The notes under the pieces were generated by a model that had not been told where the DNA came from, searched no databases, and saw only the letters and a program-made list of their open reading frames with translations. The position numbers and the translations under genes are program-made. Of a stretch of 35,791 nucleotides of DNA, positions 3,793 to 17,907 are shown one piece after another (position 1 is the first letter of the stretch; every line of letters starts with the position of its first letter). Source of the DNA: Desulfobacteraceae bacterium (GTDB taxonomy: Bacteria; Desulfobacterota; Desulfobacteria; Desulfobacterales; Desulfosalsimonadaceae); assembly GCA_011390415.1 (NCBI GenBank), contig JAABSL010000022.1, forward strand, positions 1 through 35,791. Direction: 5' to 3'.

Positions 3793-3982
3793 CCGCTGAT
3801 GAAATGAATACCCCCGCCCGAAGCCGTGTTGGATAAACCTTGAACCTGACCGTCAAGGTGGGCGCCCTATAGCTTCTTTAGGCTTTTCCGTACAAGCGGA
3901 ACTTGCTCACCAAAACCAGTGAAGGCTCCCTTAATGTTAGTGTTGGGTCAAGGGACATAATCCAATCACGAAAACAGCAGGG
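3793..3982 (-). ncRNA. ssrS: 6S RNA
   Basis: The minus strand carries landmarks of bacterial 6S RNA in the right order: GTCCCTTGACCC on the 5' side, then GGTGAGCA, GGAAAAGCCTAAA, and CACCTTGA followed by the TCAGGTTCAAGG hairpin arm. E. coli 6S has GGUGAGCAUGCUCGG, AAGCCUUAAAA and CACCUUGAAcc...GGUUCAAGG at matching places. CTGCTG (3980-3975) can pair with CAGCGG (3798-3793) to close the rod, giving about 188 nt, close to the E. coli length of 184. 6S RNA mimics an open promoter and sequesters sigma70 RNA polymerase in stationary phase. The position just after zapA matches the widespread zapA-ssrS linkage in Proteobacteria. The ends are estimates to within roughly 10 nt. Confidence 0.9.
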
Positions 3983-3989
3983 GTAAAAC

Positions 3990-6022: not shown

Positions 6023-7447
<1,425 letters not shown>

Positions 7448-7483
7448 CTAAAAGACTATATAATGCAAATATTGTTTTGCGGG

Positions 7484-8374
7484 TTATCCCTTCAGTGCTT
7501 CGGCGCCGCCGATAATATCCATCAGCTCCATTGTAATTGCCGCCTGGCGGGCTTTATTGTATGCCAGTGTCAGATTCTCGATCATATCGTTACATGCCTT
7601 GGTCGCATTGTCCATTGCCTTCATGCGCGCCGCATGTTCACTGGTCGATGTCTCAAGCAATGCATTGAAAATCTGAATAAAAACATTTTTCGGGAGCATT
7701 TCATTTAATAATTCGTTGGGTGAGGGTTCAATAATATGCTCCGCCAGATAGGGTTGATCTTCATCCGTATCCGTTTCAGCTGTTTCAATGATCGGGATCG
7801 GCAACAGCTTTTTGATGACCGGCGGCTGTGCCGCAATTCCCTGAAAAGTGGCATAGACGACATAAACCTCATCAAAGCTGCCGTCCAAGAACCCGTCAAT
7901 TAACTCCTGACCGGATGTGGACGCCACATTAAAACCGAATTTACCGCCCACAACGTTCAGATATTGATTGGTGATCTGGAGCTTGTTGTTGCGGCACCGG
8001 TCACGGCCTTTTTTCCCGAAATTGGTGAATGAGACATCAATTCCCTGGCTCACCTTTTCATTCATCAATTCTTCGGCAGCTTCCATCAGATTTACATTAA
8101 ATCCCCCGCAAAGACCGCGGTCAGAGGTCATTAAAACAATATTCACACTGTTAACTTCATTACGGGGAGTTAACAGGGGACTTGCGTTGCCTCCTGCCTT
8201 GTCGGCAATATTTCCCAGTACTTCGGAAAATTTTTCCGCATAGGGCCGAAACGCTTCCATTGCAGTCTGGGCACCGCGTAACCGGGACGTTGCCACCATA
8301 TTCATGGCTTTTGTAATCTGCCGGGTCTTTTTAACGCTGGATATTTTTTGTTGTACTTCTTTTAGTGATGCCAT
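7484..8374 (-). CDS. atpG: F1 ATP synthase gamma subunit
   Basis: Rotor shaft of F1. The 296 residues begin with the conserved N-terminal helix (SLKEVQQKISSVKKTRQITKAMNMVATSRLR), include DRGLCGGFNVNL in the middle, and end with the C-terminal helix (DNATKACNDMIENLTLAYNKARQAAITMELMDIIGGAEAL). AAGGGCAG precedes the ATG. It is separated from atpA by 58 nt, the widest gap in the operon, in which no terminator is seen. Confidence 0.98.
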   Translation of the reverse strand: MASLKEVQQKISSVKKTRQITKAMNMVATSRLRGAQTAMEAFRPYAEKFSEVLGNIADKAGGNASPLLTPRNEVNSVNIVLMTSDRGLCGGFNVNLMEAAEELMNEKVSQGIDVSFTNFGKKGRDRCRNNKLQITNQYLNVVGGKFGFNVASTSGQELIDGFLDGSFDEVYVVYATFQGIAAQPPVIKKLLPIPIIETAETDTDEDQPYLAEHIIEPSPNELLNEMLPKNVFIQIFNALLETSTSEHAARMKAMDNATKACNDMIENLTLAYNKARQAAITMELMDIIGGAEALKG

Positions 8375-8432
8375 ATATTTACTGCCCTTATCAGCATAAT
8401 TTATTCAATGTTAGGTATGAAACCATCAACAA

Positions 8433-9950
8433 TTACTTGATGGTGTCCTTGAACTCGTCACCATACTCGGTCAGTGCTTTGTTCAATAACGCTTCCATAT
8501 CATCTGATATCTTTTTCTCATCTGCAATACCGGAAAAAATCTGCGGGTACCGGCTTTCAATGAACTGGTAGAGTCCGGCTTCATATTTGGCCAGAACCGT
8601 CAACGGCAGTGCATCCAGATATCCCTGGGTGCCGGCAAACATGATTGCAACCTGTTTTTCAAGCGGAAGCGGCTGGTACTGGGGCTGCTTCAGGATTTCA
8701 ACCAGGCGTGCACCACGGGTCAGCTGTTTCTGAGTCGACGCATCGAGATCCGAGCCGAACGCGGCAAATGATTCCAGTTCCCGGTACTGAGCAAGATCCA
8801 GTCGAAGGGTACCGGCCACCTGCTTCATGGCTTTTTCCTGGGCAGCGCCGCCGACGCGGGAAACGGAAAGGCCGACGTTGATGGCAGGACGAACACCGGC
8901 AAAAAACAGGCTGGGCTCAAGATAAATCTGACCGTCAGTAATAGAAATAACGTTTGTCGGAATAAAAGCGGAAACGTCACCGGCCTGGGTTTCGATAATC
9001 GGCAGTGCGGTTAATGATCCGGCGCCAAGCTCGTCATTTAACTTAGCGGATCGTTCAAGCAGACGTGAATGGTTATAGAAAATATCTCCGGGGAATGCTT
9101 CGCGTCCCGGCGGCCGGCGCAGGAGCAGTGAGACCTGGCGATAAGCGACCGCCTGTTTGGAAAGGTCATCATAGACAATCAAGGCGTGTTTTCCGTTGTC
9201 ACGGAAAAATTCGCCCATTGATGTTCCGGCATACGGCGCAAGATACTGCTGAGCAGCCGGGTCACTGGCACAGGCGGCGATGACGGTGGTGTATTCCATG
9301 GCACCGTGTTTTTCCAGAACTGAGATCACCTGGGCAACGGTTGATTTTTTCTGGCCGCAGGCAACATAAATACAGTAAATATCCGTATTTTTCTGAGCCA
9401 GAATGGCATCTACCGCAACCGCGGTTTTGCCGATCTGACGGTCACCGATGATCAGCTCGCGCTGTCCGCGTCCGACAGGTGTCATTCCGTCAACCGCTTT
9501 AAGACCGGTATAACAGGGTTCATGAACACTCTTACGTGCGATAACACCGGGGGCGACCATTTCGATACGTCTGGTTTCCGTCGCTTCAACCGGTCCCTTG
9601 CCATCCAGAGGCTGGCCCGCTGCATCCAGAACACGTCCCAAAACGGCATCGCCAACGGGAACTTCTGCAATCCGGCCGGTTCGTTTGACGATATCCCCTT
9701 CTTTGATGTGGATATCCTCGCCCAGAATAGCAACGCCCACGTTGTCTTCTTCAAGGTTCAATGCAAGCCCGAGAATACCACCAGGAAATTCAACGAGTTC
9801 CAATGCCTGAACTTTTTCAAGGCCATAAACACGGGCAATCCCATCACCGATTGACAAGACGGTACCGGTTTCACTAAGTTCGATTTTCTTGTCAAAATCC
9901 TGAATCTGATCTTTAATAATCTGACTTATTTCTTCGGCTTTAATTTCCAT
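8433..9950 (-). CDS. atpA: F1 ATP synthase alpha subunit
   Basis: Non-catalytic nucleotide-binding subunit of the F1 hexamer. The 505 residues carry the P-loop GDRQIGKT near residue 170, the N-terminal beta barrel with [20 protein letters not shown], and the alpha-subunit signature [17 protein letters not shown]. Its ATG overlaps the atpH stop codon by one base (TAATG), which favours coupled translation. Length and order match typical F-type operons. Confidence 0.99.
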
Positions 9951-14342: not shown

Positions 14343-15680
14343 CTACTCAGTTTTTTTAAACGAGGCTTTGGGGAAAAAGCAGTACGGACATTGTTCCGGG
14401 GCCTCTTTTCCGTAATGAACATGGCCGCATATCTTGCAGCGCCAGGCAGTTGAGTCTTCCGCTTCCGGCTGGTTTACCTCTTCGGGATTCTTTTTCCAGT
14501 GCAGGGAAAGATCTTCCAATGGGGGCATCACAGCCTGATAACTGTTGAGCACATACCCGGAGACAATCATCCGCTGAATTTCGCTGGTCCCTTCGTAAAT
14601 CCGATATAACCGGACATCCCGATACAGTTTTTCAATGGGATACATCTTGGTATAGCCATATCCCCCGAAGATCTGCAGGGCCTCGCTTACCACTTCCAGG
14701 GCCACTTCCGTGGCATAAAACTTGGCAATGGATGCTGAAATCGTCGGATCAATGCCATTGTCAGCTTCCCAGGAGGCTTTCCATACCAGCAAGCGCGATG
14801 TTTCAACTTTTTGATACATTTCGGCCAGTTTAAACTGGATGGATTGGAAATCGGAAATTTTGGCCCCGAATGCCCGGCGTTTTTTTGCATAGTCCAGGGC
14901 ATACTCCATTGCGGCCCGGGCAGCGCCGACAGCAAATGCCCCGATGGCTGCGCGGGTTCGGGAAAATGTTTTCATGGCCAGGACAAAGCCTTTTCCCGGC
15001 GGGGCCAGAATATTTTCTTTGGGAACGCGGACATTGTTGAAATGAATGCCGACCGTATTGGAGCATCGCTGGCCCAGCTTGGGGATTGTTGCGCCGATTG
15101 ACACTCCCTCCCATTCTTTTTCAACCAGAAACGCACAAATTCCCTCATGTTTGGACTTTGGATCTTCAGTGGCAAAAATAGAAAAATAATCGGCAATCCC
15201 TCCGTTGGTCACCCAGTATTTTGTTCCGTTTAATATGTAGTCCTCCCCGTCTTTGGTGGCCGTGCATCGAATGCCGGAGACATCCGAACCCATCATGGGC
15301 TCGGATGTCGCAAAACTGATCAGTTTGAATTCTTTGGCGATTTTCGGAAGATAGGTTTGCCTGGCCTGTTCATTATCGGACAAAACTAACGGTTCCAAGC
15401 CCAGCGAATTATCAAACACGGAGGTGGCAATACCCGGACAGGCGGCGGCGATTTCTTCGGTAATAACAACGCCTTCGATGATGCCATAACCTTTCCCGCC
15501 ATATTTGGTCGGAATATCCCCATTGGTGAGCCCGGCTTCAAAGGCTTTTTTTAATACGGCAACCGGTGTTTTGTCGATTTCATCGTAATATGCGGCAACC
15601 GGCAGGACATTTTTTAAAGAAAACTCACGGGCCTTTAATTTAAGTTCGGTCTGTTCCTCGGTAAGGGTAAAGTCCAGCAT
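14343..15680 (-). CDS. Acyl-CoA dehydrogenase fused to a C-terminal rubredoxin
   Basis: FAD flavoenzyme that introduces a trans-2 double bond into acyl-CoA, as in fatty-acid or short-acyl-CoA oxidation. Residues 1-385 form a normal acyl-CoA dehydrogenase: LTEEQTELK start, ATSEPMMGSDVSGI, YWVTNGG, FGGYGYTKMYPIEKLYRD, and the catalytic Glu at 363 in RIYEGTSEIQ. A linker then leads to a rubredoxin-like iron site, Cys 415/418 and 431/434 (CKICGHVH...CPYC). In the ordinary enzyme electrons leave through ETF; the tethered rubredoxin suggests a different or added acceptor. The ATG at 15680 is fixed by GGGAGG 7 nt upstream; a GTG at 15686 is less likely. Substrate cannot be told from the sequence. 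Confidence 0.93.
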   Translation of the reverse strand: MLDFTLTEEQTELKLKAREFSLKNVLPVAAYYDEIDKTPVAVLKKAFEAGLTNGDIPTKYGGKGYGIIEGVVITEEIAAACPGIATSVFDNSLGLEPLVLSDNEQARQTYLPKIAKEFKLISFATSEPMMGSDVSGIRCTATKDGEDYILNGTKYWVTNGGIADYFSIFATEDPKSKHEGICAFLVEKEWEGVSIGATIPKLGQRCSNTVGIHFNNVRVPKENILAPPGKGFVLAMKTFSRTRAAIGAFAVGAARAAMEYALDYAKKRRAFGAKISDFQSIQFKLAEMYQKVETSRLLVWKASWEADNGIDPTISASIAKFYATEVALEVVSEALQIFGGYGYTKMYPIEKLYRDVRLYRIYEGTSEIQRMIVSGYVLNSYQAVMPPLEDLSLHWKKNPEEVNQPEAEDSTAWRCKICGHVHYGKEAPEQCPYCFFPKASFKKTE

Positions 15681-15784
15681 ACACACACCTCCCTGACATT
15701 AAATGGATTATGGAATGGGTTAACGCTTTCGATGGTGCTTTATTGAATTTTTTTGTTTCACTTTAAACTATTTTTATCCGTTTA

Positions 15785-15829
15785 TAAATAAAAAAGGCGA
15801 CGGGCTTTTTTACAAACCCGCCGCCTTTT
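15785..15829 (-). terminator. Terminator of the 37-codon gene
   Basis: Inverted repeat 15792-15804 with 15817-15829. Read as minus-strand RNA the 13-bp stem is complete with a single G-U pair and is followed by a run of six U residues. It ends 31 nt after the stop codon of the small gene at 15861 and closes its transcript before the acyl-CoA dehydrogenase gene. Confidence 0.88.
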
Positions 15830-15860
15830 CAAGTCGAGCGACATATAAAATCAGATTTAT

Positions 15861-15974
15861 TTAGATCCAGAGCAGTTCATCACCGATCAGATCATCGTTT
15901 AATTGCGCCAGCGCTTCACTCAATTCAGGGAGAATATCTTCATAATCTTTTACTTCGATGCATATTTCGTTCAT
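15861..15974 (-). CDS. Small acidic protein of 37 residues, unknown function
   Basis: I do not recognise this protein. It begins MNEICIEVKDYEDILPEL and ends DDLIGDELLWI. It has 11 Asp/Glu and one Lys, so it is strongly acidic. It has one Cys near the N terminus, no membrane segment and no signal peptide; most of it could form one amphipathic helix (LPELSEALAQL). The reality of the gene is supported by a perfect GGAGG (15985-15981) 6 nt before the ATG, an AT-rich upstream region with a near-palindrome, and a strong terminator just downstream. It lies alone between glnS and the acyl-CoA dehydrogenase gene. It could be a small regulatory or chaperone-like protein, but nothing in the sequence fixes a role. 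Confidence 0.75.
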   Translation of the reverse strand: MNEICIEVKDYEDILPELSEALAQLNDDLIGDELLWI

Positions 15975-16007
15975 AATACACCTCCATGTTTAGAGGGTTT
16001 TGTTTTC

Positions 16008-16031
16008 AATGATCAATTAATTATCATTGTC
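16008..16031 (-). promoter_or_regulatory. Operator-like near-palindrome before the small gene
   Basis: Positions 16008-16028 form an AT-rich near-palindrome (minus strand AATGATAATT then AATTGATCATT, with one extra G). The 19 bases 16031-16013 match the classical Fur box at about 13 of 19 positions, including GATAAT in register. It lies about 35-55 nt upstream of the small gene's ATG. A poor -35 TTGATA lies upstream. Binding by Fur or another dimeric repressor is only suggested. The remaining 16032-16188 shows nothing I can name. Confidence 0.35.
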
Positions 16032-16188
16032 AGCTGAATATCAAAGCAGATAATCAGTAAACCATGGCCTAAAAGTAATTATGAACCCGTGCCGGTCAAG
16101 TATCAATTTGATTTCCGCAATTCAGCGGACAACCCTGTTCGTATTCAACTATCTGAATTTAAGTTTAAATTTATCGAAAATAAAATAT

Positions 16189-17907
16189 TTATTTTTTTTG
16201 CTGCTTTTTAATTTTTGCCCACATGTCCCGCAACGTGACAATGCGGTTAAAAACAAGATTGTCCGGTGCCGAATCCTTGATATCCGCACAAAAATAGCCC
16301 AACCGTTCAAACTGGCAGCGGAATCCCGGTTCCGCAGACCCAAGGCCGGGCTCGAGTTTACAGTCTTTTAATATCCGGACTGAATTGTCATTTAAGGTGG
16401 CTTTGAAATCGTCGGCAGCGGCCGGGTTTTCTGCTTCAAATAAATTTTCATACAACCGGACTTCCGCGCTTGCGGCATGCTGCGCCGATACCCAGTGCAG
16501 GGTCGCTTTTACCTTTCGGCCGTCCGGGGCGTCCCCGCCGCGGGTTGCCGGATCATAGGTGCAGCGCAGCTCAACCACCTTGCCGCTGTCATCTTTAATA
16601 ACATCCGTGCAGGTGATAAAATAGGCATACCGCAGGCGCACTTCCCGGCCGGGCCCCAACCGGAAAAATTTTTTGGGCGGATCTTCCATAAAATCATCCT
16701 GTTCGATGTACAATACTTTGGAGAACGGTATTTTGCGGGATCCCATGGTTGGATCTTCCGGATTATTCACCGCATCCATCTCCTCGGTCAGGTCTTCCGG
16801 AAAATTTTCAATCACCACCCGAAGGGGATTTAAAACCCCCATGACACGCGGTGCTGTTTTGTTTAAATCTTCACGAATGCAGTATTCCAGCAATGCCACA
16901 TCAACGGTACTGTCCCGTTTGGCCACTCCGATGCGCTCGCAGAAATTCCGGACAGACGCAGGCGTGTAACCGCGACGACGCAAGCCGGAAATGGTCGGCA
17001 TTCGGGGATCATCCCATCCGGAGACGTGATTCTGCTGCACCAGTTCAATGAGTTTTCTTTTGCTTAAAACCGTATAGCTGAGATTCAGCCGGGCAAACTC
17101 GATCTGCTGGGGGTGATAAACATCCAGGGCATCTAAAATCCAGTCATAGAGTTCCCGGTTGTTCTTAAATTCCAGTGTGCAGAGAGAATGGGTTATTTTT
17201 TCAATGGAATCCGACAAACAATGGGCAAAATCATACATCGGGTAAATGCACCACTGGTCGTTTGTCCGGTGATGATCCAGTTTTCGGATGCGGTACAAAG
17301 TCGGATCTCTCATGATGATGCTGGGGGAGGCCATATCGATCCTGGCCCGGAGCACACAGGCGCCTTCGTCAAACTCACCGTTTTTCATTTTCTGAAACAG
17401 CGCAAGATTTTCCGCCACGGTCCGGTTGCGATAGGGACTGTTGCTTCCCGGCTCTTTCAAGGTGCCGCGGTTTTCCCGGATCTGCTCTGCGCTCTGGCTG
17501 TCCACATAGGCTTTGTTCATTTGAATCAGCTGCACCGCGTATTCAAATAGCCGGTCAAAATAATCGGATGTAAAATAAAGATGATCGTTCCAGTTAAACC
17601 CCAGCCATTTCACATCTTCCTGAATGGAATTGACATATTCAATATTTTCCTTGCCCGGGTTCGTATCATCAAATCTTAAATGACAGGTCCCGTTGTATTC
17701 TCTGGAAAGACCGAAATTCAGGCATATGGATTTTGCATGGCCGATATGCAGATACCCGTTGGGTTCCGGGGGGAACCGGGTGACCACGCGCCCGTCATAT
17801 TTGCCGGTGGCCATGTCTTCTTCTATGATGTACCGGATAAAATTGGGCGGAACGGTTACTTCACTGGTATCGCTGGTATGGTCGCCATTGGTTTTTGAAC
17901 CTGACAT
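16189..17907 (-). CDS. glnS: Glutaminyl-tRNA synthetase
   Basis: Class I synthetase that charges tRNA-Gln directly. The 572 residues show the GlnRS/GluRS catalytic domain with [16 protein letters not shown] (HIGH at 54-57), [10 protein letters not shown], and the KMSKS-type loop VLSKRK near 280, where GluRS would differ. The C-terminal half is the GlnRS-type anticodon-binding beta-barrel pair. AAGGAGA precedes the ATG. It follows mrdA by 13 nt and is probably transcribed with the mre-mrd genes. Many deltaproteobacteria use GatCAB instead of, or beside, GlnRS; that cannot be judged here. Confidence 0.97.

Follow-up and report, generated by a model that had tools for sequence, protein, structure and literature searches.

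The window, by which we mean the whole stretch of 35,791 nucleotides that was analysed, carries a 37-codon open reading frame on its minus strand, between glnS and the gene of an acyl-CoA dehydrogenase (Table 1). Its product, MNEICIEVKDYEDILPELSEALAQLNDDLIGDELLWI, contains 11 acidic residues, one Lys and one Cys, and has a net charge of -10. The ATG start and the GGAGG sequence at a 6-nt spacing, which a preliminary description of this DNA had reported, are both correct, the latter appearing as CCTCC on the plus strand. A purine-rich site 5' of the start is found in the homologous small genes too, with the exception of that of genome G011.

The same description had credited the gene with a strong terminator of its own. 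Indeed, a stem of 17 pairs followed by a T run begins 30 nt 3' of the stop codon, with a minimum free energy of -30.2 kcal/mol and a z-score of -6.2, and none of the shuffled sequences folds as well. By eye, a hairpin and a T run also follow the stop codon in the homologues of G008, G005 and G011. The further claim, that the frame forms a complete transcription unit, holds for this 3' end but not for the other: no good terminator was found between the glnS stop codon and the frame, and the sigma-70-like matches upstream of it, which include the unproven candidate of Table 1, are at chance level (3 observed versus 2.9 expected). Since a good terminator is missing there, read-through from glnS is possible, and the glnS transcript may have the frame as its last gene, in addition to or in place of a separate unit. 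The AT-rich near-palindrome that had been listed among the signs of a real gene has lost that standing. A perfect 7-bp arm such as it has is reached in 26% of shuffles of the intergenic region (67% A+T), and the near-palindrome was not seen in the homologous loci, G008 and G005 included; on these two grounds it was also ruled out as an operator.

Table 1. Position of the small gene, its signals and neighbours, and other features of the window
Feature	Position	Strand	Basis and remarks
37-codon protein gene (focal small protein, group A)	15974..15861	minus	ATG 15974-15972, TAA 15863-15861; open frame, homologues, purifying selection, conservation peak
Shine-Dalgarno sequence GGAGG	15981..15985	minus	by sequence; 6 nt 5' of the ATG
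Intrinsic terminator	15781..15830	minus	fold and sequence; 17-pair stem 15830..15791, T run 15790..15781
Acyl-CoA dehydrogenase with C-terminal rubredoxin-like domain	14343..15686	minus	Pfam Acyl-CoA_dh_N/M/1, RUBY_RBDX; start probably the ATG at 15680
glnS, upstream neighbour at 215 nt	16189..17907	minus	open frame (stop at 16189); name from the preliminary description, fits the sequence
Candidate sigma-70-like promoter TTGATA-17-CATAAT	16106..16078	minus	unproven; such matches at chance-level number
AT-rich imperfect palindrome CAATGAT-N9-ATCATTG	16007..16029	.	probably chance
6S RNA gene	3807-3986	minus	Rfam RF00013, 114.8 bits
Partial 16S rRNA	1-518

A family of conserved small proteins

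When the 37 residues were compared with 60 relatives, full-length homologues appeared with 68% identity in G008, 57% in G005 and 52% in G011, together with a more distant set, and profile searches were carried through the family, the order, the class, the phylum and the family of G161. In all, full-length, start-to-stop homologues occur at 12 loci in 10 Desulfobacterales genomes, which are of the sulfate-reducer type. Eight of these genomes are in the family of the window (36 genomes searched), and two, G161 and G221, are in a different family of that order. The gap in E-values is sharp, the weakest accepted locus standing at 5e-16 and the next match at 0.009, most accepted loci being already inside the profile when this gap was measured; before their inclusion, the values were 3e-17 for an additional copy carried by the window's genome (G000), 6e-10 for G161 and only 0.008 for G221. 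The loci of G161 and G221, which were found by profile, have their own ATG and ribosome binding site. Chance matches (L009, L011, L018, L019, L022-L028) and the weak profile matches were rejected, as they lie within longer frames or lack full-length colinearity. The G011 copy (L035, G011:C221, 1808-1906, minus strand), which lies between glnS and the dehydrogenase gene, keeps the frame and has no in-frame ATG, GTG or TTG; it may be decaying, misassembled or using an unusual start.

The product had been said to resemble nothing that could be named, and this stands: no model of Pfam or NCBIfam matches it, no relative was found in the PDB, and the best Pfam match, DUF6382, is below threshold (E = 0.085) and concerns one group B member only. 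The plasmid collection gave no match either, and nothing specific to the protein was found in the literature. The family is thus undescribed in the libraries searched (Pfam, NCBIfam and PDB), lineage-restricted, unannotated small proteins being in themselves a known kind.

In a tree of the 12 proteins, three groups separate, which track genomic context: A (support 60/75), B (89/83) and C (79/89). These modest values are expected with 37 columns. A profile made from group A alone gives every B and C locus a better rank than any non-member in a set of 13771 six-frame segments. One made from group B alone recovers all A loci as well as G161, with G221 ranking among the noise. This reciprocal test, which is lenient because the loci were first chosen by similarity, supports the homology of the three groups.

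The substitutions do not ignore codon position. Where dS is estimable and unsaturated, dN/dS lies between 0.03 and 0.25 (0.03-0.15 for pairs within group B), and the G000/G008 pair shows 24 differences, 14 of which are at third positions (dN 0.176, dS 0.708). A BLOSUM permutation null is exceeded in 10 pairs out of 10, with p from 0.0005 to 0.0035. Nucleotide identity is 63-89% in the frame versus 35-71% in the 150 nt on each side, the shuffled baseline being 43-45%. The other two forward frames contain stops in every member examined, and some reverse frames are open by chance. The focal frame has, therefore, both the homologous start-to-stop frames and the coding pattern of substitution that characterize conserved small open reading frames (smORFs). 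The preliminary description had named two outcomes that would have spoken against a gene, the lack of a conserved frame in relatives and substitutions blind to codon position; with homologues at 12 loci, a low dN/dS and conservation that peaks within the frame only, its claim has survived both, and the focal frame is almost certainly a real, translated gene. That status rests on the ribosome binding site, the terminator and, decisively, conservation. The acidic character, equally part of the original claim, is true of the window protein but is not a trait of the family: some members have a net charge as high as +1, against -10 for the window protein.

Genomic contexts and a sigma-54 switch

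Group A consists of the window gene and the copies of G008, G005 (contig C67) and G011. At all four loci the small gene lies directly upstream of a 447-residue, RUBY_RBDX-tailed acyl-CoA dehydrogenase. glnS is the upstream neighbour in G011 too but not in G008, where the small gene and the dehydrogenase gene are still together without it. The rubredoxin-tailed dehydrogenase is present in 22 of the 36 genomes of the family, mostly without the small gene, which makes the latter an accessory. The adjacency of glnS and the dehydrogenase gene without the small gene is also common in the family, and the linkage seen in group A could be inherited synteny. Of the two group C loci, that of G161 has the end of the small gene about 20 nt ahead of a gene for a CoA-disulfide-reductase-like FAD enzyme with a rhodanese domain. 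In G221 the small gene is flanked by the genes of a type II/IV secretion ATPase and a chemotaxis receptor.

Group B comprises six loci (G003, G005:C149, G015, G021, G024 and G000:C77, where the window's own genome has its second copy). In the last of these (L029, G000:C77:20000-33311), the small gene and the adjacent sigma-54 activator occupy positions 7416-7517 and 7803-9290 of the minus strand. An activator of this kind, carrying PF00158 and the GAFTGA motif, lies directly upstream of the small gene at all six loci, with one enoyl-CoA hydratase gene between the two in G003. Between activator and small gene, a -24/-12 element, TGGCAY-N5-TTG, scores 9-10 out of 11 in each of the six, whereas the best scores in groups A and C are 6-8, within those of shuffles. 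Upstream of the focal gene in particular, the -24/-12 promoter (TGGCAC-N5-TTGCA) is absent, the best score being 6/11, which 90% of shuffles equal; lacking this promoter, the focal gene was not classed as sigma-54-dependent. Transcription of group A would instead be of the housekeeping kind, starting from a weak promoter of its own, reading through from glnS, or both, and stopping at the strong terminator.

A tandem site, TGNACAT-N4-TGTACA, is located 114-117 nt before the -24 box at five of the six group B loci (L030-L034); in G015 there is one half-site only, at -113. This site is probably the activator's binding site. With the strict pattern, its sole match in the window's own genome besides group B is the operator of a Phd/PIN pair, and no wider regulon was seen in that genome. 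The group B paralogues thus have an apparent -24/-12 promoter and an adjacent activator, as sigma-54-dependent genes do, and the small gene is most probably the single, dedicated output that its neighbouring activator is predicted to control. The promoter and the tandem site, like the reality of the gene, its family and its contexts, are computed results. The signal to which the activator would respond is one that we infer.

The N-terminal domain of the activator, of about 190 residues with the motif NPFSDER, is modelled as all-helical (pLDDT 83) and has no Pfam match and no fold match in the PDB. Its relatives occur in Desulfobacterota, Myxococcota, Nitrospirota, Dependentiae, Verrucomicrobia, Kiritimatiellae and Lentisphaerae. 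Beside members of this activator family, sigma-54-like promoters face, by eye, VIT-like genes (L048, L055, L085, L087), rhomboid-like genes (L046, L052) and an LplT-like transporter (L061, L062); half-sites similar to those of group B were seen, again by eye, at the last two loci, which are from Verrucomicrobia/Kiritimatiellae. That envelope-type genes face these promoters in other lineages suggests a membrane-related signal. At two loci (L090, G003:C39; L092, G015:C244), a sigma-54-like promoter divergent from a second activator paralogue precedes two to three tandem tiny frames that encode hydrophobic peptides of 19-23 residues (METLLTFGHIVFYAILWIA, MESLLTFGHTIIYALFRII, MEFLNAIVDAVIYFTAGWIRWPV), with an RBS-like site before most of them.

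Proposed role and competing explanations

The members of the family are 37-38 residues long. Their conserved core begins with a strand-like N-terminal x-I-x-[IV]-[KR]-[DE]-[FY], after which comes one amphipathic helix with the pattern E-I-x-x-E-L-x-x-[VT]-L; groups A and C also share a tail of the form [L]-I-G-D-E-L-L. AlphaFold2, run on five sequences, gives a lone helix (residues 11-33, pLDDT 72.5), which is amphipathic in all members tested (individual p values of 0.0015-0.07). Foldseek found nothing with this model, and the PDB gave no convincing relative by sequence. By sequence, the window protein is a genuine, lineage-restricted, cytosolic protein of 37 residues. A single helix with no room for a catalytic site and no transmembrane stretch makes the binding of a larger partner the default reading, and we favour, with a probability of about 40%, a helical regulator that binds a partner and acts in trans. 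In this proposal, for which we infer both the partner and the direction of regulation, the amphipathic helix would dock on a larger partner, or on itself, and tune that partner in trans. The most plausible partner in group A would be the rubredoxin-tailed acyl-CoA dehydrogenase, or else a further enzyme from the CoA/redox metabolism to which it belongs. As for group B, the small protein would be made on a signal, as the dedicated output of an orphan sigma-54 activator. The neighbours hint, circumstantially, at acyl-CoA/CoA-redox metabolism, since CoA-linked enzymes are encoded next to the small gene in group A (the dehydrogenase), at two group B loci (enoyl-CoA hydratase) and in G161 (the CoA-disulfide-reductase-like enzyme); G221 does not fit. 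The diversity of the contexts, among them a sigma-54 activator, a CoA-disulfide-reductase-like enzyme and a chemotaxis receptor, argues against one fixed partner.

Four other explanations were weighed against such a trans-acting regulator. The order of ribosome binding site, short frame, strong terminator and enzyme gene on one strand, which recurs in G005, G008 and G011, is what one would expect of a leader peptide whose translation controls termination at the hairpin and hence the expression of the downstream acyl-CoA dehydrogenase. Leader peptides, however, typically conserve runs of codons; here there is no run of regulatory codons, selection at the amino acid level spans the whole frame, and the group B homologues have a terminator with no enzyme gene immediately behind it. 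Homologues in other contexts and amino-acid-level conservation led us to leave the frame out of the leader peptide/attenuator class, and this explanation is unlikely. The short, stand-alone transcript with its strong terminator might also be that of a dual-function small RNA, in which the transcript would matter more than the peptide, but conservation is confined to the codons and goes with synonymous change, while the flanks, including the 5' leader and the hairpin, diverge, and no Rfam family is found at the focal frame. We therefore judge this very improbable.

The strand-then-helix pattern and the small, acidic character recall a minimal antitoxin-like or DNA-binding protein of the ribbon-helix-helix or Phd-like type. 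Several members of the family are not acidic, though, no Pfam model matches, hhalign detects no profile similarity to a Phd-like antitoxin from the window's genome, and no toxin-like gene lies beside any copy in the neighbourhoods examined; without an antitoxin profile match or an adjacent toxin gene, the family was not placed among toxin-antitoxin systems (Phd/RHH), and the idea has little in its favour, if marginally more than the RNA explanation. Finally, the idea of a chance ORF has in its favour that the frame is short and that the six-frame lists of the region hold many ORFs of similar length; it is contradicted by the 12 homologous loci, the low dN/dS and the conserved start and stop, to the point of being barely credible.

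A broader proposal, a little more tentative than the regulatory role itself, sees these proteins as a new class of helical small regulators and as all that an undescribed sigma-54 switch puts out. The activator of this switch would have a novel all-helical sensor, with a range from Desulfobacterota to Verrucomicrobia, a tandem TGNACAT site of its own and a single target. In this view, the window gene would be a copy that has left the switch and joined an acyl-CoA dehydrogenase locus.

Significance and comparison with known systems

This case shows that sequence alone can suffice to validate a gene of 37 codons, a size under the usual limits of gene calling. As the sister copy of the family brings its own regulator, promoter and binding site, all three predicted, the function is directly testable. 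The case also points to an uncharacterised sensor domain that sigma-54 activators of several phyla share.

The family resembles other unannotated bacterial small proteins, such as the smORF families of the Global Microbial smORFs Catalog (PMC11364881), in that its genes stand alone, have fewer than 50 codons and their own ribosome binding site, are missed by size limits and are under protein-level selection. What sets it apart is the specific regulatory context of group B, with a dedicated sigma-54 activator and an upstream site. Sigma-54-dependent genes that lie beside the gene of their own enhancer-binding activator are well known, and are of the PspF/psp, RtcR/rtcBA or NorR/norVW type. Group B resembles these systems in its PF00158/GAFTGA activator, its adjacent -24/-12 element and its tandem sites about 115 nt upstream. 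It differs from them in that the output is a single protein of 37-38 residues and in that the N-terminal domain of the activator is all-helical and unmatched in Pfam and the PDB. The group A copy of the window departs further from the PspF, RtcR and NorR systems, having no -24/-12 promoter.
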